A stretch of DNA of 37,205 bases from a virus: positions 1 through 37,205 of IMG/VR virus record IMGVR_UViG_3300042879_002976. The stretch is one strand, 5' to 3'. Below the pieces are notes generated by a model that ran no database searches, was not told the origin of the DNA, and saw only the letters and a program-made list of their open reading frames with translations. How positions within the stretch are numbered: the first letter of the stretch is position 1; each line of letters starts with the position of its first letter. A program made the position numbers and the translations under genes. Shown piece after piece: positions 3,001-32,169 of this stretch.

Positions 3001-6000
3001 CGGGGTCGGCGGTGTCAATCGTCTCGCTGGCGGGTTCACCGTCTTTTTTGTAAGCGGTAAGTAGCCACCGCATTTGCTGGTCAAAATACGTTTTGCGGAC
3101 GACGTATGTTTTGTCGTTGTTAACCAGTTGCACCGTGTTTTCATTTTCGGAAACAACTTCGGCGCTTTGAAACTCTTCTCCAAGCGTTGCAATAATTTCG
3201 GGTCGAAGTGCGGCAATTTTGGCAAGACCCCCCGAACCAGCTGCCCTTCCAGTAAAACCACCGTAAATCAAATCAACTTCGCCAATTTGCGGATGATTCC
3301 ACGCGGCAGGCACATAGCCTTGTTTGACGATCATCAAATGGTCGATGGCCTCTTGCGGACGACCGGAAAATTGCGGGAATGATTCGCCAAGGGCGGCGAT
3401 GCTGTAGTTCTCCACCGCCTGCGCCGTCGCCGCCGCTTCGTAGCCGTAGATCGGGCGACCAGTCATAATGCGGCGCTCGACCATGTCGAATAGATCAGAC
3501 GGCGTGGTGATCTGGTTGAATCCCATCGTCTGCAAGTCTTTGATTAGCGCGTCGAGGTCGGGCGCGTTTTTGCGGAACAAGTTGAAGACGCCTTTGACGC
3601 CAATGGCATTGCCGCCCTTGGATGCTTCGCGGATACGCTGCAACTCACCGGAGTATTGGTAGACCTTGCTGCTGGTTTTGGCTGGCAAACCGCCCGCCTC
3701 GCGCACGGCGTCGAGGATGTCGATTCCGCCGTCGGCAACAGCCTCCGCGGCGTCCTGCTCCATTTCAGCGTCCAGTTCGGCCTGTAACGCGGCACGCTCC
3801 TCGTCGGTCAATCCGTCGGCACCGCGTCCATCCGGCGCAACCTCCTGCGCGGTCTTTTTGCGGGAGCGGTCTACGATGGTCTGGTCGGCCAGTCCGACGG
3901 ACTCGGCAAGGAATTGCTCGTAGTCCTGCCCCAGCGTGCCGTCGGCAAATCCCTTGCGGAGCGCCAAACCGCGGGCCATGACCTCCTTGAGAACTTGGAC
4001 GAGGCGCTTGAGGTAATCGACAAAGCTGGCCGGTAGCTGGGACTCGGCGTTCTGGTCGATACGCTGGCTGACGTAGGCTTCGGCCACAATGGCGAGCGAT
4101 TCGATGATGTCGTCGAAGTTGTCCTTGGCGTAGGTTTCTCCGGTGATGGCCTCGGTGGCGGTGAGCCAGTCGCGCAGTTGCTGCTCGTTGACACTGCCTT
4201 GGGCGACGGCCCGCCGGACAAAAACGTGGTTGATCTCCTCCAAGGCGTCCTTCGGGCGCGAGGATTCGTTGAGCGCGATGACGCCGCGGAAGACGCCCTC
4301 GGCCACGGTTTCGATGCTGGCGGTGCCAAGGATCGTAAGCGTGCTGTAGTCTTGCCCCGCGGTGCGCGGGTCTTGGGCGATGCGGCGGTGCAGGGTTTCG
4401 ATGCCTGCGGTGTCGCCCAGTCCTTGCAGGCGCTCCAGTTCCTGCTGGGCGGTGCGGGAGCCTTCCAACCGGACGACGTTGTTGGGGTCTTGTTGCGTCC
4501 ACCAGTCGATCAGTTCCTTGGTGGCGATGCGGTCGGCGCTAAATTGCGCCGCGGTCGATTTCATCACCGCCATGCGGTAGGCATCCTCTGCGGCCTGTTG
4601 GCTGGTGGTGCGGTAACGCTCGACGCCCTTCTCGTCGCGCACGATGTAGGTCATGCGACCGGCGGTGTCCTTTTGCGTCTCCATCGTGGGCATGGCGGCG
4701 TCTTCTTGGTTGGTCGCTGCGGCGCGAGACTGCTCGGCTATGCGATCCTTGGCTGCTTGCACGCGCTCCGGCGGCATGTTCTTGAGAGTCTCGACGTAGC
4801 GGTTGCGGCGTTCCTGCGGCGTGGTGCCGTCTTCGATGTATCGGCGCTCCTGCTCGTTGATGCCGGTCGGATCGTACATCATCTTCTGGCGGCGCTCGGC
4901 GCTGGCAAAACGTTCGCCGTCGGCAAACGTCTCTACCATGTGACCGCCAATGACCGGCATGAGGGTCGCGGCCAAGACCTCCAAACGACTGTCTTTCCAC
5001 TGGGTCAGCGTATCTTCCCAGTTGACGTCGGGAAACTCGTCGCTCAAAGCGGCGGCGACGTCTTTGACCAGAGGTGTGGTCAGATCCTGTGTTCCCTCGG
5101 TGATGTTTTCGCCCACCACCTTGCCGAAAAAGCTGACCGCGCCTTGCGTGGTGCGGGCAAACCGCGCCGGATTGACCAGCTTCTGGATCGTCTCCCGATA
5201 CCACTTGTAGCGACCGAAAACGAGCTTGGCACCGAAGACCTCCGCGGCGGTCTGGAGCGGGGCGCTAACCGCGGCCAAGGTGCGTGATTGCGAGGGCGTG
5301 AAGCCCTCCAGACGGAGTTGGTTGTATTCGTCGGCGTAGATGGCCGCGCCGGTCAAAACGGGGCCAACAACGGGGATTGCGGCGACTCCGGTGAAGGCCA
5401 GCGATTGCGGCCCCAAAAGGGCAATATCCTGCACAAACTTCAGCGCACCGGTGGCGTTGCTCTTGACGGGATCAAAACGATTGTCGGCCAAGTCGCGTAG
5501 TTCGCGGACGACGTTGAAGCGTTGCAGTTCACGCTCGGCCTGCTGAAGCAGGGTTCCGCGGTCGTCGGTGCTGACCTCCTCAAAGTCCTGCGGGCTGAAA
5601 GCGGTGCCGGTGGCGCGGGTCAGTTGGCCGGTGTTCTTGTTGCGGAAAAGCGTGCCTTCGCCTTGCAGGAGAGCAACCTTGGCCTCGGCGTCGGTTTCCT
5701 GCGCGACCAGCGCGGTGGTGCGAACCATGTTGAGCGAGCGCGGCCACGCCTCCGCGGCCATTTCCCAGAAGCCCTTGTCGTCCATTCCTTGGCGCTTTGC
5801 GGCCATGAAGATGGCGGCGTAGCCACGGTCGCGCACTTCCTTGGGCAGTTCGCCCAGCCCGTCAATGATGGCGTTGAGGTCTTCGACCGTCTTGACGTCA
5901 TCCTCCGGCGCTCCCTCGACCTTGCGTCCGGTGACGTTGATGATATTGGCGTAGAGCCGTTGCAGGACGTCGCCGTGGTCGCGCAGCATCTGCTCGTTTT

Positions 6001-24706: not shown

Positions 24707-24967
24707 TCATTCAAATGGGTTGGCTTGCCACGTTGTGCCTTGCTTGAAATAGGTCATTTGCGGGCCGTCGGGATTCATAACGCAAATCGTCGTTGCCTCC
24801 GGCATGACAAAATTTGCCAAATCGACCGCTCCCAACATGTCCGGCCCGCCACTGGTTGGAACTCGGATGACAAGCATCTCTTTACCAAGCGGGTAGATGC
24901 TCTCCCAATAACATTGCAAGACGTCGCTCCACGCGCACTGCGAATACGGGTCGAGATTTCTGCTCAT
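24707..24967 (-). CDS. Small hypothetical phage protein
   Basis: An 86-residue protein from ATG at 24967, overlapping the helicase-loader stop by 4 bases. It reads LDPYSQCAWSDVLQCYWESIYPLGKEMLVIRVPTSGG and ends MTYFKQGTTWQANPFE. Not recognised, although it has the balanced composition of a folded protein. The longer open frame upstream overlaps the loader gene and is a shadow. Confidence 0.65.
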   Translation of the reverse strand: MSRNLDPYSQCAWSDVLQCYWESIYPLGKEMLVIRVPTSGGPDMLGAVDLANFVMPEATTICVMNPDGPQMTYFKQGTTWQANPFE

Positions 24968-25680
24968 GCCGCCTCCTTCGCCGCTTCCAGTCGCAGCCCG
25001 TAGTCGCGCAGCCCTGTGGCGTCCACGATAACGCTGCCGTGCCGCATGAGGCGCGAGGCGATACGGACATCGAACTTCTCGGCTATCTGCTTGCGGCTGA
25101 AATTGGTCGTGATGACCGTCCACTTGCGGAGCCGCCGGTCGAGCAGATCGCCCATCTTGGACACGGCAAACTGGGTCGCCTCGCCGTCCGCACCCAGAGC
25201 GTCTGTGCCAAGGTCATCGATGGCCTTGAACCAGTCCTCCGCGGCGACGTCGAGCCGGTGATATTCGCCGGAACGTAGCTGACCCAGTAGGCGCGACCAA
25301 CGGCACATGAACGGCCCCGCCTGTGCGTAAAGCCAAAACGACGACACGCCGTTGCGCTTTAGGCGCTCGCGCTCTCGCGTGTAGACGCCCCGCCCGTAAA
25401 TCTTGAGCCATGCGACGATACGCTCGGCCAGATAGGTCTTGCCGCATCCGCTCTCGCCCACCAGCACCAGCCAGCGCGGCTCTGCGCCGTTTACTATGTC
25501 CGCGATGAACTCGCGGGCATTGCGAAGCATGTCATCGACAATAACGCGCTCTGGGGCCGTTTCCGCGCCCGTAAGGTGCCATTGCCAGTCCCAGTTCGGT
25601 TCGGTTTTAATAACCTTCGGGTTTGTTGACTCCGCTATAGCTGCGGAGGCGGTTCGCACCGCTTGTGCCATTGTTTGCAT
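24964..25680 (-). CDS. DnaC-like helicase loader / AAA+ ATPase
   Basis: A 238-residue protein from ATG at 25680, preceded by AAAGGAAAATCTT. Walker A is GESGCGKTYLAERI at about residues 75-82 and Walker B is AIDDLG near 151. ITTNFSRKQIAEKFDVRIASRLMRHG supplies sensor 1 and the arginine finger region. Phage DnaC-like loaders bring the host DnaB helicase to the phage origin. It overlaps the DUF1376 gene upstream by 74 bases in another frame, a typical initiator-loader pair. No phage helicase or polymerase is present, so host recruitment is likely. Confidence 0.87.
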   Translation of the reverse strand: MQTMAQAVRTASAAIAESTNPKVIKTEPNWDWQWHLTGAETAPERVIVDDMLRNAREFIADIVNGAEPRWLVLVGESGCGKTYLAERIVAWLKIYGRGVYTRERERLKRNGVSSFWLYAQAGPFMCRWSRLLGQLRSGEYHRLDVAAEDWFKAIDDLGTDALGADGEATQFAVSKMGDLLDRRLRKWTVITTNFSRKQIAEKFDVRIASRLMRHGSVIVDATGLRDYGLRLEAAKEAA

Positions 25681-26296
25681 AAGATTTTCCTTTCCGGTTG
25701 TTTTCTTTGAATCGTCCTGCCCACGCGGACAGCGCGTATTGCCAGTTGCCGATGGGGTTGCCGCGGCTATCCAGCCAGCGGCCAAAGCGGTCAATGTCGC
25801 GCCCCTTCATTTCGTCATACCAAATGCCCGTCTGCTGCTCGGTGAGTCCGGCATTGCGACCGGCTTCGATGACTTGCTCGCGGGTCGGTTCCTGCCACAC
25901 GGACGACGAGTCCCTATTAGAGTCTATATGTGACTGTGATTGCTTAAGCCTCGCTTGAGCCTCGCTTAAGCCAGCCTTACCTCCCTTTCTCCCTGCGGCA
26001 GAGAGCTTTGCGTGCTTTGCCTGCGCTTTGGCGCGTTCCTCGACCACCCTCTTGTGGGTCAAAACGCCATCCTTTTCGGTGAAAAACGCAAGGCAGGCTT
26101 TAGCCTCGCTTAACCACTGCTCGCGGGTCATCCGCGCCGTTGCGGCGAGAAAATCGGCGTCGGCTGGCAAGCCCTGCGGCCTGCGCCAATGTGCCATGAG
26201 CAGCAGCAAATATGCGCCGTGCTGCGCGGCGGTGAGGTGCATTGTGTCGGCCAAATAGTCACCGATCCACAAGGGCATCCATGCATCAGTCTTCAC
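25607..26296 (-). CDS. DUF1376 (YdaU-like) replication initiation protein
   Basis: A 229-residue protein. It opens PLWIGDYLADTMHLTAAQHGAYLLLLMAHW, the hallmark of the DUF1376/YdaU family, with a winged-helix domain over about residues 1-90. A basic linker (KHAKLSAAGRKGGKAG) follows, then a C-terminal EQVIEAGRNAGLTEQQTGIWYDEMKGR...GNWQYALSAW segment. These proteins pair with DnaC-like loaders in phage and prophage replication blocks. The origin may lie in or near this gene, but I see no clear iterons. Confidence 0.87.
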   Translation of the reverse strand: MKTDAWMPLWIGDYLADTMHLTAAQHGAYLLLLMAHWRRPQGLPADADFLAATARMTREQWLSEAKACLAFFTEKDGVLTHKRVVEERAKAQAKHAKLSAAGRKGGKAGLSEAQARLKQSQSHIDSNRDSSSVWQEPTREQVIEAGRNAGLTEQQTGIWYDEMKGRDIDRFGRWLDSRGNPIGNWQYALSAWAGRFKENNRKGKSYANNGTSGANRLRSYSGVNKPEGY

Positions 26297-26688
26297 AACG
26301 CCTCCTTCAGCGTGACTTCAAGGTAGGGTTCCTCGGTGCGGCACTTCTCCGCGACAAACTGGTCAACCAGCGCGTCGTCGGTAATCCAGCCCGCCGGTCG
26401 CAGGCAGTCGAGAACGCCTTTGGCGAGGTTATCGATGTCGGGTCGCTTGCCATGCCGCCGCTCGTTGGGCCTCGCCTTGGTGCGCCCGAAGGCGAACTTC
26501 AGCTTAATCAAGACCGGATAGTCTATCGGCTTGCGCGGTGCGTGTTTCTTGAGCGCGGCCACCAGCGCAGTCTGCGCGTCGGCTACTTTCTTCTTGGTGA
26601 AAAACATGGGCTTGCCCCCGCGGACGAATACGCCCTTCTGCTGGGCGGTGACGGTCGAAGGCTCCCCGTCGATAATTGCAGTGATCAT
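26293..26688 (-). CDS. rusA: RusA-type Holliday junction resolvase
   Basis: A 131-residue protein. KRPDIDNLAKGVLDCLRPAGWITDDALVDQFVAEK is the RusA signature, with the conserved aspartates of PDIDN and TDD and a following EK. The length matches RusA (about 120). It cuts four-way junctions arising from recombination or replication, which suits its place among recT and recE-like genes. It is coupled to both neighbours by short overlaps. Confidence 0.88.
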   Translation of the reverse strand: MITAIIDGEPSTVTAQQKGVFVRGGKPMFFTKKKVADAQTALVAALKKHAPRKPIDYPVLIKLKFAFGRTKARPNERRHGKRPDIDNLAKGVLDCLRPAGWITDDALVDQFVAEKCRTEEPYLEVTLKEAL

Positions 26689-26996
26689 GTGATGGGCTTT
26701 TTTCTGCGCGGTGGGCGCGGTTTGGGCGTGGTAATCCGGCGCATTACGAAGCCGGTTGGTAGACCGATTTCGATGAGGGCGGCTTGAAGGTCTTGGTCGG
26801 GAACCTCCGCGCCGTGTTTCAGCATGTCATCGAGCGCATCGCTGCGGTCGGGAACCATGCGGAGGGAAAGCGTCTCCCACCACACGATCCGCGCCGCGGC
26901 GTGCCTCACGGGCAGCGCCAGCGTCATTAGACGCTGACGCCACTCCGCGGGCGTGATGCCTCGGCTCCATCTCGGAACGTAGGCTTTGTCACTCAT
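26685..26996 (-). CDS. Hypothetical basic protein
   Basis: A 103-residue protein. It starts MSDKAYVPRWSRGITPAEWRQRLMTLALPV, continues with WWETLSLRMVPDRSDALDDML and ends in a strongly basic tail (RRITTPKPRPPRRKKPIT). The tail suggests binding to nucleic acid, but the family is not recognised. It is coupled to rusA by a 4-base overlap and shares a base with the upstream gene. Confidence 0.6.
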   Translation of the reverse strand: MSDKAYVPRWSRGITPAEWRQRLMTLALPVRHAAARIVWWETLSLRMVPDRSDALDDMLKHGAEVPDQDLQAALIEIGLPTGFVMRRITTPKPRPPRRKKPIT

Positions 26997-27247
26997 TACT
27001 CCTCGGCCTCCTGCCGCCCGCCGCCAAGGCGAAGCACTTCCAACAGCACTTGATTGACGCGCTTCTCGGCTTTCACCTCAAAACGAGTGTTGGTCAACTT
27101 GTCCTCGCTGCGTTGCAACCGCTCAAGCAACCCGTTGTATTGCTCAAGTAGGTCGTTGTATTTTTTCTCCGCGGCTAAAGCCTTGCACCGGATGATGTCC
27201 ATATCCTTGAGGAGCTTGGCGCTTGTTTGCTTGGTCTGTTCGCTCAT
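26996..27247 (-). CDS. Small coiled-coil protein
   Basis: An 83-residue protein from ATG at 27247 (the longer open frame upstream is a shadow of the nuclease gene). Nearly all of it is one charged helix with heptad-like spacing (LLKDMDIIRCKALAAEKKYNDLLEQYNGLLERLQRSEDKL). It overlaps the RecE-like stop by 4 bases. No function is assigned. Small coiled coils in such blocks can be accessory subunits. Confidence 0.65.
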   Translation of the reverse strand: MSEQTKQTSAKLLKDMDIIRCKALAAEKKYNDLLEQYNGLLERLQRSEDKLTNTRFEVKAEKRVNQVLLEVLRLGGGRQEAEE

Positions 27248-28056
27248 AGCGCCGCCTCCGCTTGCTTTGCCGCCCACGCCGGAAGGCCCAGCGTAGTGAT
27301 GTCTTGCGTGAACGAGGGCCAGTGATCCTCGGCCATGCAGTGCTTCACCGCGGCGAGATCGCGTTGGTATTGCTTGCGGCCCCACTCAATAGCCTGCTGG
27401 TCGAGCGCGTAGACGGCGACCGCGTAGGGCGGTGTTTTCTCCACGCAAACAAACAAGAACTCCGTCTTGTCGATCCCCAGCAGTTGGCAGAGGTCGAGGT
27501 AGTAGGCGGCTTGGACGTCGTAGCGATAACTCGCCACGCTCTTGGCCATCATGTCCGCGTCGGCGCTTTGGCAGGACTTGATGTCCACGATGACGTTGCC
27601 GGATTCCGGCAGCGCATCGATCCGCGCCTTGCGAAGGACGCCGTCTTCGCCGCTTGCGAATAGCGAACACTCGGTCTTCGCGTTGGCCAAAACCCGCTTC
27701 ACCGCGGGGTGCGACCAGACGCTCTCGCGCATGCCAGCAATAATGTCAGCTTCGCTTGACGTTATGATCGGTAAGGTCTGCGCTGCTTGCCATTCCTTGC
27801 CTTCCTTGGTCGTGAACTTCATGCCCTCTGGCTTGACCACCCACGCGCCAGAAACCGTCTCCGGCTCCAAGATGGCGCGGTGGATCATCTGGCCCAGCCG
27901 CATGGCCGGTGTCGTTTCGATGCGGAGCAGGCCATCGATGTATGCCTTAAAGTGCGCGGGCGTCCGCGGCGGCGCGATGTAGTCGAGCGCCGATTTGCTG
28001 ATGCCCTCGGCTTCGCGGTATTGCTTTTCCGGTAGCGACAGGATGCCGGTGTTCAT
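27244..28056 (-). CDS. RecE-like PD-(D/E)XK exonuclease
   Basis: A 270-residue protein. Features of the phage exonuclease VIII type are SKSALDYIAPPRTPAHFKAYI near the N-terminus, MRLGQMIHRAILEP, RKARIDALPESGNVIVDIKS (Asp near 146, Asp-x-Lys near 158-160) and YRYDVQAAYYLDL. The enzyme chews one strand of a double-stranded end to give single-stranded tails for RecT. It lies two genes downstream of recT, separated by a 51-residue ORF that overlaps both. Confidence 0.87.
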   Translation of the reverse strand: MNTGILSLPEKQYREAEGISKSALDYIAPPRTPAHFKAYIDGLLRIETTPAMRLGQMIHRAILEPETVSGAWVVKPEGMKFTTKEGKEWQAAQTLPIITSSEADIIAGMRESVWSHPAVKRVLANAKTECSLFASGEDGVLRKARIDALPESGNVIVDIKSCQSADADMMAKSVASYRYDVQAAYYLDLCQLLGIDKTEFLFVCVEKTPPYAVAVYALDQQAIEWGRKQYQRDLAAVKHCMAEDHWPSFTQDITTLGLPAWAAKQAEAAL

Positions 28057-28208
28057 ATGCCAGCCTCCTTCGCCGCGGAGTTAAGCGCATCGCTTTGCGT
28101 GCGGCGGTGTTCCAACTCGGCCATGAACTCGGCAACCATGTGGTCGCCGGTCATGCGGTCGGTGAGTGTGTTGAGCCACTCGACGGCCCAAACGAGGTCA
28201 GCGTTCAT
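28053..28208 (-). CDS. Small hypothetical protein between recT and the RecE-like gene
   Basis: A 51-residue protein from ATG at 28208 (MNADLVWAVEWLNTLTDRM) to a TGA that overlaps the next ATG (ATATGA). It is predicted to be helical and acidic in its first half. It overlaps the recT stop by 4 bases and the nuclease start by 4 bases, a tight coupling that argues it is real. GGAGG lies 6 bases before its own stop and serves the nuclease gene. Family not recognised. Confidence 0.6.
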   Translation of the reverse strand: MNADLVWAVEWLNTLTDRMTGDHMVAEFMAELEHRRTQSDALNSAAKEAGI

Positions 28209-28930
28209 TTCAGCACCTCCGCAAACAGTTCGCCGGTCGCCTTGTCGTTGAGCGCGGCGCGTTGACTTGGCTCCGCGGCGGTGTCGAAGAACTCCGCGGC
28301 GGTTGTCGGCTCCGGTAGCACTACGCTGGACGCGACTTCGCGCCCGCGGGCCACCTTGACTTGGTAGTCGGCCACCTCTTCGCGGATGCCCAGACCGCGC
28401 AGTGCGTCGGGGAAGGCATCGCGGAGCGCCCAGCTACGCGCCCGCATTTGCAACATGCGCGACGGGTATTGCTGCCAAGGGCCGGATTTGCCCCACAGGC
28501 CCGCCTTCTTCGCGTCGGCCTCGCTGAACGTGCGGACGACGGCACTGCGGTCGCGGCGTTTCACGATGCATGTGGCAACGTGACCTTCAGCCGTTTTGTC
28601 GCGGCCAACCGTTTCTTCGATGTCGAGAAACGACGGGTGTGCGGTGCAGAGCGCCAGCGCCGCATCACCGTAGATGCAGGGCTTGCCGTTGATGATGGCG
28701 ATGGACTGGAGCGCCTGCATGGGCGCGAGGCCCAGTTCCAAGCCATGCTGAACAGCGACCATCACCGCTTCGGGACTGCTAAAGCCCTTGGGCGCGAGGC
28801 CACTGTTAACGACCGCCTTGCAAAAGCGGGCCATCTCGTCGAAGGAGCGCAACTGCACTCCATGCTGGTCGAGTTGGATCTCGACGGGTTGGGTCTTTGG
28901 CAGAGCCAGTTGACCATTTTCTGCTGTCAT
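28205..28930 (-). CDS. recT: RecT-type single-strand annealing protein
   Basis: A 241-residue protein taken from ATG at 28930; an ATG at 28948 is also possible, and still earlier starts would enter a hairpin region. The signature GLELGLAPMQALQSIAIINGKPCIYGDAALAL and YPSRMLQMRARSWALRDAFPDALRGL is that of RecT/Bet-type annealing proteins. The protein coats single-stranded tails made by its partner nuclease and pairs them with homologous DNA. The partner is the RecE-like gene downstream. Confidence 0.92.
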   Translation of the reverse strand: MTAENGQLALPKTQPVEIQLDQHGVQLRSFDEMARFCKAVVNSGLAPKGFSSPEAVMVAVQHGLELGLAPMQALQSIAIINGKPCIYGDAALALCTAHPSFLDIEETVGRDKTAEGHVATCIVKRRDRSAVVRTFSEADAKKAGLWGKSGPWQQYPSRMLQMRARSWALRDAFPDALRGLGIREEVADYQVKVARGREVASSVVLPEPTTAAEFFDTAAEPSQRAALNDKATGELFAEVLK

Positions 28931-28958
28931 TGTATTTGTTCCCTTCATTGTGTTCTGA

Positions 28959-28997
28959 CCCGTCTCCGCGGCATGCTGCGGGGGCGGGTTTTGTTTT
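28959..28997 (+). terminator. Terminator-like hairpin on the plus strand, opposite the recT leader
   Basis: As plus-strand RNA, bases 28959-28969 pair with 28978-28988 over 11 pairs (two G-U wobbles) around an 8-base loop, and TTTTGTTTT follows. On the minus strand the wobbles become A-C mismatches, so the hairpin is weaker there. No plus-strand gene precedes it nearby. It could stop antisense transcription into recT, or be chance. Confidence 0.35.
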
Positions 28998-29010
28998 GTG
29001 GGTTGCATGC

Positions 29011-29172
29011 CTAAAATCGGACGCTGCGGTTTTCGTATTTGCGGAGCAGCCAGCGGTTCCACTTGTGGTGCGCCTGTGACTTGTCCCAGCCGGACATCCA
29101 ACCGGCGCTGTAGGCACCGATCACGGTGCAGATCCACATCCCTACGAGGATGACGATGAGGAGATAGTCCAT
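29011..29172 (-). CDS. Small single-pass membrane protein
   Basis: A 53-residue protein from ATG at 29172: MDYLLIVILVGMWICTVIGAYSAGW, then a basic, aromatic tail (HHKWNRWLLRKYENRSVRF). There is one membrane segment, with positive residues after it that suggest the tail stays inside the cell. Its start overlaps the stop of the upstream gene (TAATG). No function assigned; early membrane proteins of this size sometimes act in superinfection exclusion. Confidence 0.6.
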   Translation of the reverse strand: MDYLLIVILVGMWICTVIGAYSAGWMSGWDKSQAHHKWNRWLLRKYENRSVRF

Positions 29173-29360: not shown

Positions 29361-29581
29361 TGTGTGTTTTTCTTGTTCTGGTGTTTGAGCCGCTGCGACA
29401 TGGCAGAGGCGAAAGTGACGGGGTCGTGGTGAATGTGTTCGCCCTCCTCAAGGAGCCAGTAGTGGATGTCCGCGTAGCTCCACCCCTTGCGCCGGAGGAT
29501 GGCGACCGGCTCGACGAGTTGGTCGTAGTTGTGTCGACCGTTCCGCGGGACGGCGTTGCGGGCTTTATCGACCAAGGTCAC
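29357..29581 (-). CDS. Small hypothetical protein with HTH-like segment
   Basis: A 74-residue protein, start GTG at 29581 in a GTGA overlap with the HNH stop. VEPVAILRRKGWSYADIHYWLLEEGEHIHHDPVTFASAMSQRLK resembles small phage proteins in which a helix-turn-helix-like unit recognises DNA or a protein partner. The longer frame beginning near 30139 is a shadow of the HNH gene. Function unknown. Confidence 0.6.
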   Translation of the reverse strand: MTLVDKARNAVPRNGRHNYDQLVEPVAILRRKGWSYADIHYWLLEEGEHIHHDPVTFASAMSQRLKHQNKKNTQ

Positions 29582-30123
29582 GCTGCGGCCCTCCTTGGTT
29601 CGCGCCCCAAGATTTCGCCAAGGATGTGCTGGATGTGCGGCCAGCGATGGCCATGCAGCGTTTTGATCAACGCTCCGCGAGCGATGCCGATCTTCTCGGA
29701 GATAACGCGGTAAGTGACGCCATGCGCGAACAAAAGCGCCGCGGCAATAAACTGCGCCTCCGTATAGCGCGAACAAGTGTGCGCTGATCCTTTTGCGGCA
29801 CGCTTCCGCCCCTTCCGCGCACAATCGCGCTGGTTGTCGGCGGCGGTGCCAATGGACAAATGCAGCGGATTGACACAACTTGGCGTGTCGCAGGAGTGCA
29901 TGACATGCAGGCCAACCGGCGGGCGCTTCCCGTTGTGCAACGCCCAAGCAACACGATGCGTTGCCTCGCCGTTGCTTTTGCCTATTGGCATCCGGCCATA
30001 ACCGCGACTGCTCTTGCAGCCCTGCCAAAGCAGGCAATCGCCGCTGGCAACAACGCGCTCGGCCAAACGCCGCCGCGCCGAATCCATAAGCGCAGGACTT
30101 GTGAAAAGTTTGTCCCAGTTCAC
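29578..30123 (-). CDS. HNH endonuclease with C-terminal HTH-like segment
   Basis: A 181-residue protein, start GTG at 30123 with AAAGGGGAGTT ahead of it. CLLWQGCKSSRGYGRMPIGK, HRVAWALHNGKRPP, VMHSCDTPSCVNPLHLSIGT and NQRDCARKGR form the common phage HNH_3 layout (about residues 30-110). The C-terminal ALLFAHGVTYRVISEKIGIARGALIKTLHGH is HTH-like. This is the design of homing endonucleases, so it may be a mobile passenger. A 19-bp palindrome shared with the RHH promoter lies just ahead of its start, which suggests common control. Confidence 0.87.
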   Translation of the reverse strand: MNWDKLFTSPALMDSARRRLAERVVASGDCLLWQGCKSSRGYGRMPIGKSNGEATHRVAWALHNGKRPPVGLHVMHSCDTPSCVNPLHLSIGTAADNQRDCARKGRKRAAKGSAHTCSRYTEAQFIAAALLFAHGVTYRVISEKIGIARGALIKTLHGHRWPHIQHILGEILGREPRRAAA

Positions 30124-30311
30124 AACTCCCCTTTCTCAAGGTTCACTGAACCTTGGGCCAAAAGAAAAGCGCAGTGGGCGCTCAAAGAGCGAAACTCCAC
30201 TTTCGATTGTTTGAGTAGTCGGGCCTTAACGTCCCGCGGTATCTGGATGTTGAGTGGCAATACGTCTGCCGGTTTCCTCTGCTTGTTTTGTAGCATGGGC
30301 GATTGCTGCAT
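30120..30311 (-). CDS. Second ribbon-helix-helix protein
   Basis: A 63-residue protein. LPLNIQIPRDVKARLLKQSKVEFRSLSAHCAFLLAQG is a beta strand followed by two helices, the RHH (Arc/MetJ) design. It overlaps the upstream RHH gene by 86 bases in another frame and ends in a GTGA overlap with the HNH gene. Such proteins bind DNA as dimers through the strand pair. The start is uncertain, as an internal ATG at 30296 is also possible; the RHH core is unaffected. Confidence 0.7.
   Translation of the reverse strand: MQQSPMLQNKQRKPADVLPLNIQIPRDVKARLLKQSKVEFRSLSAHCAFLLAQGSVNLEKGEL
30137..30155. promoter_or_regulatory. Palindromic operator O2 ahead of the HNH gene
   Basis: CAAGGTTCACTGAACCTTG is a perfect palindrome about a central base (9 pairs). 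Its 13-base core GGTTCACTGAACC is identical to that of the palindrome in the RHH promoter. It lies inside the last codons of the second RHH gene, 14 bases ahead of the HNH start. It is probably bound by one of the two RHH proteins. Confidence 0.7.
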
Positions 30312-30480
30312 AGTCTGTTGCTGTTAGTTCAGTGGTTGATGTTTGAGCGGCCAATATTTCATTGACCACCTGTGCGACCGGAACACCACGCCGACGAGCA
30401 ATGCGACGAAGTCGCATGACCGTGGTGCGAGGAACCTGTAGTGAGAGAGGTTCCTTATCGGGTGAGTGTTGCGAAGGCAT
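30226..30480 (-). CDS. First ribbon-helix-helix protein (candidate repressor)
   Basis: An 84-residue protein from ATG at 30480. LSLQVPRTTVMRLRRIARRRGVPVAQVVNEILAAQ is a clear RHH unit, with LSLQV as the DNA-reading strand, followed by a short helical tail. An upstream ATG at 30528 would lie within the promoter and is unlikely. The gene stands directly behind a good promoter whose spacer is filled by a palindrome, which suggests self-repression as in Arc/Mnt-type switches of P22-like phages. With no CI-type protein present it is the best candidate for the lysogeny repressor; that is inference. Confidence 0.78.
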   Translation of the reverse strand: MPSQHSPDKEPLSLQVPRTTVMRLRRIARRRGVPVAQVVNEILAAQTSTTELTATDYAAIAHATKQAEETGRRIATQHPDTAGR

Positions 30481-30500
30481 TGTGTGTGGGTTCAATGGAA

Positions 30501-30528
30501 AACATAGCGGGTTCACTGAACCCGTCAA
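30501..30528 (-). promoter_or_regulatory. Sigma70-type promoter of the RHH pair with operator O1 in the spacer
   Basis: On the minus strand: TTGACG (30523-30528), a 16-base spacer, and TATGTT (30501-30506). The spacer carries the palindrome CGGGTTCACTGAACCCG (30508-30524), which also reaches two bases into the -35. An A/T tract at about 30530-30551 precedes it and could act as an UP element. A half-site GGGTTCA lies at 30488-30494. Binding here would block RNA polymerase directly. Confidence 0.75.
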
Positions 30529-30579
30529 TGACTTTTTTAAAAAAAGTTTTTGGCCACTCGGCGCGATCCACCAACCACA

Positions 30580-31014: not shown

Positions 31015-32169
31015 ATGTCTTCACTCATCATCCTTCCCAACAGTCCCTATTGGATGGCCCGCATGCGGGTCTGGATTTTCTCACAAGACCACCCAGACGG
31101 CGGTTTCTGGCGTCAGACTTGTCGTAGCACAAAGATGCTGCACAAGACAACCCCGCGCAAAACGGCCCAGCGGTATGCCGACGAATTGGAGCGGATCGGG
31201 CGCGAGCTACGCGACCAGATACCGGACGAGGTGTGGATGAAAGCGAGCGTGGCGGCTCTCATGCGTGCCGCGGGCGTCAAAGGGTCAACACGCCGCACCA
31301 CATGGGAAAAGGCCGCACAGGGCTATATAGGCGCAAAGACGGCCAAACCTCGCAGCGTTGACTCCTACCGATCCCACTGCCAGCACTTCGCTGATTTCCT
31401 TGGCCAGCGGGCGCGGCATGACCTCAAGTCCATCACGCCGGAGGACATCAGCGAGTTCTACCACGCGCTGATTAAGCGCGGGCTGTCGGCTCGCAGCGCC
31501 CAGCAGATCACCAAGACCGTCCGCGCCGTCTTTCACCGCGCCCTGCACCTCCGCGAGATCGACGCCAATCCAGCGGCACTGTTCCGCATGAGCGAGGATG
31601 CCACGCCGTCGGGTCGGAAACCGTTCTCGACCCAAGACATCAGCGCCATTCTTGCCGCCGCGGACGACGAGTGGCGCATCGCCTGCCTCTTCGGGCTGAA
31701 CTACGGAATGCGCCTTGGAGACGCCATCCATCGCAGCCACGAGGAAATTGAAGGCGACGTCCTCCGGTTCATGCCGGAAAAGAAAAGCCGTCGCGGCAAA
31801 GTGGTCGCGGTGCCATTGATCGGGGAGCTAAACAAGTTGCGGGGCCGCGGCAAGATTACGCCCACGCTCGACGCCATGAGCATCACCGTTGCCTCGCGGC
31901 GCTTCTCGCGCTTACTCGACCGCGCTGGCGTTGCAAGGATCAAGACCAAGAAGAAAGGCGAAGGTCGCGGGATTACGGACAAGACGTTTCATAGCTGGAG
32001 ACATACGATCAACAGCCTCATGCTCGACGCAGGGGTTGATCAGCGCGTCCGTCAACTCGTCTGCGATCACGATTCGACAAAGGTCAGCAACAACTACACT
32101 CATGCTTCGATACAAACTATGGCCGAAGCGATTAAGCGTTCTGTGCCGACGTTAGAACGTAAGGAATAA
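31015..32169 (+). CDS. int: Tyrosine-family integrase
   Basis: A 384-residue protein and the only plus-strand gene. An arm-binding-like N-terminus is followed by a SAM-like core-binding domain (about residues 95-190: AQGYIGAKTAKPRSVDSYRSHCQHFADFLG) and a catalytic domain with Arg233 (GMRLGD), His326 and Arg329 (FHSWRHT), His352 (CDHDS) and the nucleophile Tyr361 (NNYTH). The full set argues for an active enzyme. It carries the phage DNA into the host attachment site, which the neighbouring tRNA fragment suggests is a tRNA gene. Its 3' end overlaps the lysis gene tail to tail by 38 bases. Confidence 0.95.
   Translation: MSSLIILPNSPYWMARMRVWIFSQDHPDGGFWRQTCRSTKMLHKTTPRKTAQRYADELERIGRELRDQIPDEVWMKASVAALMRAAGVKGSTRRTTWEKAAQGYIGAKTAKPRSVDSYRSHCQHFADFLGQRARHDLKSITPEDISEFYHALIKRGLSARSAQQITKTVRAVFHRALHLREIDANPAALFRMSEDATPSGRKPFSTQDISAILAAADDEWRIACLFGLNYGMRLGDAIHRSHEEIEGDVLRFMPEKKSRRGKVVAVPLIGELNKLRGRGKITPTLDAMSITVASRRFSRLLDRAGVARIKTKKKGEGRGITDKTFHSWRHTINSLMLDAGVDQRVRQLVCDHDSTKVSNNYTHASIQTMAEAIKRSVPTLERKE

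Follow-up and report, generated by a model that had tools for sequence, protein, structure and literature searches.

Our analysis has shown that two RHH genes in a 37,205-base virus record that lacks end repeats (the whole stretch of DNA analysed, hereafter the window) are accompanied by two matched palindromes, one (O1) in the promoter and the other (O2) where the regulator genes end, and that a T tract stands just before O2. The RHH genes, O1 and O2 all lie on the minus strand. Judging from sequence comparison, Verrucomicrobiota phages and mobile elements repeatedly show this layout, with the site sequence differing from case to case. Comparison of the loci shows matched pairs, constant positions, the T tract and selection at the DNA level. 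On balance, we lean slightly towards a model in which the first RHH protein (RHH1) uses O1 to repress the promoter and O2 to block elongation; at O2 the T tract would aid release of the RNA. RHH1 bound to the O1 palindrome would turn off the promoter of RHH1, RHH2 and the early recombination and replication genes, and RHH1 bound to O2 would halt any polymerase that had got past that promoter. The active site of the stalled polymerase would then lie in or near the T tract, and the weak RNA-DNA hybrid there would favour backtracking and release. Leaky transcription could replenish the repressor and leave the genes past O2 silent, and the O2 block would separate the regulator genes from the early operon.

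The 13-mer GGTTCAGTGAACC occurs exactly twice in the whole 37 kb, the two copies lying 370 bp apart, and pairs of identical-arm 13-mer palindromes within 500 bp appeared in 0/300 dinucleotide shuffles. O1 (CGGGTTCAGTGAACCCG, 30508-30524, core 30510-30522), a putative operator that has matched copies at O2 in relatives, lies between the -35 box TTGACG (30523-30528) and the -10 box TATGTT (30501-30506) of the RHH1 promoter. A sequence-only reading of this DNA had described O1 as a 17-bp palindrome filling the promoter spacer; it does stand between these boxes, but it shares the last two bases of the -35 box and stops one base before the -10 box. Both boxes come from a consensus scan; TTGNNN is found at the -35 place in nearly all relatives, and a -10-like box follows O1, not O2, in most families. 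The promoter match alone is weak (one found in 27-33 kb versus 1.5 expected in shuffles), and the boxes given throughout are consensus matches that may not follow the hosts' promoter rules. An A/T palindrome, ACTTTTTTAAAAAAAGT (30531-30547), abuts the -35 box on its upstream side, and a near-identical one precedes the promoter of L099, a different genome. There is also a half operator, TGAACC, on the minus strand at 30489-30494, 21 bp past O1; in relative L008 a fuller copy of it, GTTTCAATGAACC, covers the RHH1 start codon.

O2 (CAAGGTTCACTGAACCTTG, which reads CAAGGTTCAGTGAACCTTG on the minus strand; 30137-30155, core 30140-30152) is the proposed roadblock, or stoperator, site. The same reading had placed a 19-bp palindrome with the core of O1 just before the HNH gene. 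We recovered it at 30137-30155; it is, however, not intergenic, being located inside the 3' end of RHH2, and the GTG codon of the HNH gene is 14 bp further on. The T tract (TTTTCTTTT, 30160-30168, minus strand) ends 7 nt before the O2 core.

The proposed repressor RHH1 (84 aa, 30226-30480, minus strand) has a predicted RHH domain, a conserved MPxQ..DK N-terminus and a C-terminal helix. Its start is likely the ATG at 30480, the TTG at 30528 given by the ORF finder being the -35 box. RHH2 (63 aa, 30120-30311, minus strand) overlaps it by 86 bp out of frame (30226-30311), so that the RHH2 strand region is encoded within the 3' end of RHH1. This overlap recurs in relatives, and between the window and L007 nucleotide identity is 92% within it and about 85% outside. 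Profile matches of RHH1 fell below the cut-offs (Pfam CopG_antitoxin 0.04 and RHH_4 0.056; PHROG Arc-like 0.042), and RHH2 had no family profile match in Pfam or PHROGs. The RHH1 model (pLDDT 73) contains the two RHH helices and a third, with the strand not called by DSSP. Nearly all of its leading structural matches are RHH proteins, at Z values of no more than 5.0 and Foldseek E above 0.1, and it aligns with Arc, CopG and ORF56 over residues 10-52 at low Z. The RHH2 model is also RHH-like, with similarly modest confidence.

The sequence-only reading had proposed seeking its 13-base core in related phages. Both 13-mers are kept exactly as in the window in L003-L007. The matched pair is kept with a different 13-mer in L008, L032 and L033-L038: GGTTAAGTGAACC stands at the O1 and O2 places of L008 (52% RHH1 identity), GGTTCACTGAACC at both places of L032, a contig of a Verrucomicrobia MAG, and GGTTTTAGTAACC at both places of L033-L037 (46-49% RHH1 identity). 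The 13-mers are matched within each genome yet differ between these groups; the two sites of a genome thus change in step. The first base of O2 falls at the first codon position in the window, at the second in L008 and L032, and at the third in L033-L037, and its occurrence in all three reading phases indicates that the DNA, not the peptide, is conserved. Taken together, these loci show selection on the DNA of both sites. The gene after O2 varies (HNH, a third RHH, others) and O2 stays. In L008 the third RHH gene (5357-5527) comes directly after O2, where the window has HNH, and L035 and L036 have small RHH-like genes at the HNH position. The latter two loci also hold a third site copy, without a strong T tract, within their RecT-like gene.

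RHH1 homologues occur in 17 operator families, drawn from viral contigs and Verrucomicrobiota genomes, each with its own promoter palindrome and one or two repeats about 320-435 bp downstream; the palindrome sequence differs between families and matches within each locus. Most strong members carry one or two site copies between +289 and +445, counted from the start of RHH1. The upstream copy is closer to the start codon than the promoter spacer in L038, L100, L101 and L108, site orientation differs in L048, L058, L101 and L108, and L053, L055 and L063 have O1 with no downstream copy found. L063 and L052 (G038 C2) are tandem RHH cassettes with different operators; in the upstream one the second gene is broken and a downstream site is missing. 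At E 0.001, RHH1 profiles matched in 16, then 32, of 388 Verrucomicrobiota genomes, the weaker matches being doubtful; these counts are of profile matches with one genome per species, and doubtful weak ones (E about 1e-4 to 1e-3) were not counted as family members. A tblastn search of INPHARED phages with RHH1 gave no match, and a viral scan with the MPNQPD group gave no relatives. An IMG/VR scan found TTGACNGGTTNANTGAACC in 19 stretches, and only the window's family has RHH genes and a second site; the remaining matches look like chance.

A T-rich tract ending about 7 nt before O2 was present in 18/18 families, with one O2 taken from each (the 17 with a matched O1, and L047, whose O1 was unrecognised). 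The T fraction at positions -13 to -8 is 0.67-1.00 in these families. Within the 20 nt upstream of O2, the most T-rich stretch of 8 nt contains a mean of 7.0 T, versus 2.8 at random sense-strand positions of the same loci. This T content was reached in 0/20,000 simulations, with the tract noticed and counted in one dataset in which sites had been picked by O1 similarity, not T content. At O1 there is no T tract and a -10-like box comes next, whereas downstream sites show the reverse: the mean -10-like score is 4.1 after O1 and 2.6 after downstream sites, against a background of 2.5. Much of the tract is coding DNA, and O2 T content is partly due to FLL-type codons. The T content of the window's tract is above synonymous expectation (P 0.005, own codon usage), as it is in the combined synonymous test (P 3e-8, local base composition, with the frame picked by length and uncertain for some loci). 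The tract is also found at non-coding sites, namely L054 O3, L058 and the VirB2 leader in L039. Three readings of the tract were set aside: it is not part of the binding site, as O1 is without it; it is not a general stoperator feature, as it is missing at Trixie sites; and an intrinsic terminator is not indicated, as no conserved hairpin precedes it across families (mean shuffle P 0.68), though L058 and a few others have one.

The sequence-only reading had taken the pair for a self-repressing RHH regulator that also controls the next gene. Self-repression agrees with the promoter operator, the matching downstream site and the position at the head of an early operon beside an integrase. The part that made O2 an operator of the next gene's promoter fared worse. 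O2 is more likely, on present comparisons, to be an elongation block into the whole downstream operon, because it lacks a -10 signal above background, lies inside RHH2 and follows a T tract that is absent from O1. A separate downstream promoter under the same repressor, for which the T tract would be an upstream promoter element, is nonetheless an unlikely reading that deserves some weight: TTG- or TTA-like triplets often stand at a -35-like distance before O2, and one family (L035, L036) has CAAAAT after it. Yet the -10 signal after downstream sites does not rise above background, and a consensus scan, whose consensus may not be the host's, found no such promoter at O2 in the window.

A second alternative concerns the protein. 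The main binder could be RHH2 or a mixed RHH1-RHH2 dimer in place of RHH1 alone, as the overlapping genes would be co-made and both products model as RHH proteins. The outward strand residues of RHH1 track the site core, being SxQ in the window and L032, GxY in L033-L038 and SxS in L008. Those of RHH2 do not: they differ at a common core (NxQ in the window versus SxM in L032; L033 and L035 also differ) and agree (SxM) in L008 and L032 though the sites differ. Because the residues of RHH1, not RHH2, follow the core, these few contrasts favour RHH1 as the putative binder. L058, moreover, has site copies and no evident RHH2, and we regard a binder other than RHH1 alone as rather unlikely.

It is less probable still that O1 and O2 are bound together in a DNA loop that strengthens repression, with the T tract incidental or bending the DNA. 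Two identical sites do flank the regulator genes, but helical phasing is not seen among the O1-O2 spacings of the 17 families (Rayleigh P about 0.9), and a loop leaves the placing of the tract on the upstream side of O2 alone unexplained. We consider it very improbable that the tract and palindrome work at the RNA level, whether by causing a frameshift or through some other mRNA structure close to the RHH2 end: a T run, a spacer of about 7 nt and a palindrome do resemble a slippery site with a stem-loop, but no slippery heptamer is formed by the window's tract, the codon phase is not constant, the tract is retained where the site is non-coding, stems of only 4 bp can form from GGTTTTAGTAACC and GGTTAAGTGAACC, and O1, of the same sequence, is located upstream of the transcript.

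An elongation block at O2 would explain its constant place, its indifference to reading phase and to the next gene, its lack of a -10 box, and the tract, while at least one of these features goes unexplained under looping, under a second promoter and under an RNA signal alike. We infer RHH1 to be the binder, with a stop to elongation at O2 and maintenance of lysogeny as the outcome. A small bound repressor need not stop polymerase, however, since lambda CI and Cro block it poorly (PMC10310618). As O2 lies inside a translated gene, a ribosome behind the polymerase could also push it through the site.

The nearest phage precedent is the stoperator system of cluster A mycobacteriophages (L5, Bxb1, Trixie), whose repressor binds a 13-bp site in the early promoter and copies outside promoters; these copies are proposed to block elongation, and the site varies between phages with the repressor (PMC9283540, PMC6550527). 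The likeness lies in copies of the promoter operator outside promoters, represented here by O2 and O3 copies, without -10 boxes, in 18 families. In contrast, the cluster A repressor acts as a monomer, carries an HTH and a stoperator domain, and is unrelated to the 84-aa RHH-like RHH1. Its sites are asymmetric, of fixed orientation and more than 20 in number, whereas those described here are near-palindromes, two or three to a locus, without fixed orientation, and the T tract before O2 has no counterpart at Trixie stoperators. In yeast Pol I termination, the enzyme is halted by a roadblock protein inside a T-rich stretch that lies 15 bp upstream of the site of that protein; this stretch favours backtracking and gives a weak hybrid, and release also needed an RNA hairpin (PMC12366685). 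Pol I terminators (Reb1/Nsi1, TTF-I) thus resemble O2 in having a T-rich stretch upstream of a protein site (here at -13 to -8). They differ in serving a eukaryotic polymerase through an unrelated protein at a constitutive rDNA end, O2 being conditional by proposal, and in using a hairpin that is not conserved here. SSV1 F55, which regulates lysogeny in an archaeal virus, is a small RHH protein with repeated 11-nt sites in early promoters and its own, and it maintains the carrier state; the cited account of it describes no elongation block or T tract (PMC9608457). P22 Arc, CopG and similar RHH repressors resemble the RHH1 model in fold, at low Z and with sequence matches below the Pfam cut-offs. 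Arc binds in a promoter spacer; to our knowledge, no downstream operator copy with a T tract is known for these repressors. Neither an elongation-blocking RHH repressor nor a bacterial T-rich roadblock terminator was found in the open-access literature.

The first gene after O2 encodes an HNH endonuclease-like protein (29578-30123, minus strand; Pfam HNH_3 2.2e-10, PHROGs). It is followed on the same strand by early genes for RecT, exonuclease VIII-like, RusA, primosomal and DnaC-like loader proteins (24964-29137, starts approximate), the operon that O2 is proposed to gate. A tyrosine integrase gene (31015-32169, plus strand; Pfam, PHROGs) diverges from the RHH promoter, and no tRNA or known RNA was found near it. 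In the window, L008, L036, L050 and loci in G292 and G472, an integrase gene is found no more than about 3 kb away. The RHH1 source is probably a temperate phage of Verrucomicrobiota, and from the integrase and the layout we infer that the RHH system would control lysogeny. The earlier statement that no CI- or Cro-like protein is present holds for the proteins scanned; since many of the ORFs in the 1-9 kb region have no match, there could be a regulator besides the RHH proteins, and these may not make up the whole lysogeny switch, as that reading had suggested they might.

MAG G002 has the GGTTTTAGTAACC module and, on another contig that may not belong to the same element, two further copies before a VirB2-like conjugation operon. 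In this VirB2-like leader (L039, 4850-5000) the two GGTTTTAGTAACC copies are 43 bp apart, the second with a T tract, and the VirB2/VirB4-like operon adjoins an integrase. This arrangement suggests that the repressor of the GGTTTTAGTAACC module may also gate transfer genes in G002. A broader conjecture, which we offer tentatively and rate somewhat short of probable, is that phages and conjugative elements of Verrucomicrobiota share a widespread latency device. One RHH protein would serve as both repressor and conditional termination factor, T tract and operator would end bacterial transcription in the manner of Pol I, and joint change of repressor and site would give rise to new immunity groups. 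If true, mobile elements of a little-studied phylum would have a simple latency switch without CI or Cro, and bacteria would end transcription, as Pol I does, by a T-rich stretch and a roadblock protein. The proposed O2 system is small enough for reconstitution in a test tube. Its signature (a T tract, about 7 nt, then a palindrome repeated from the promoter) would reveal the repressor site of an unannotated element and thereby make immunity groups predictable. Two further families, L081 and L099, were located starting from the tract.
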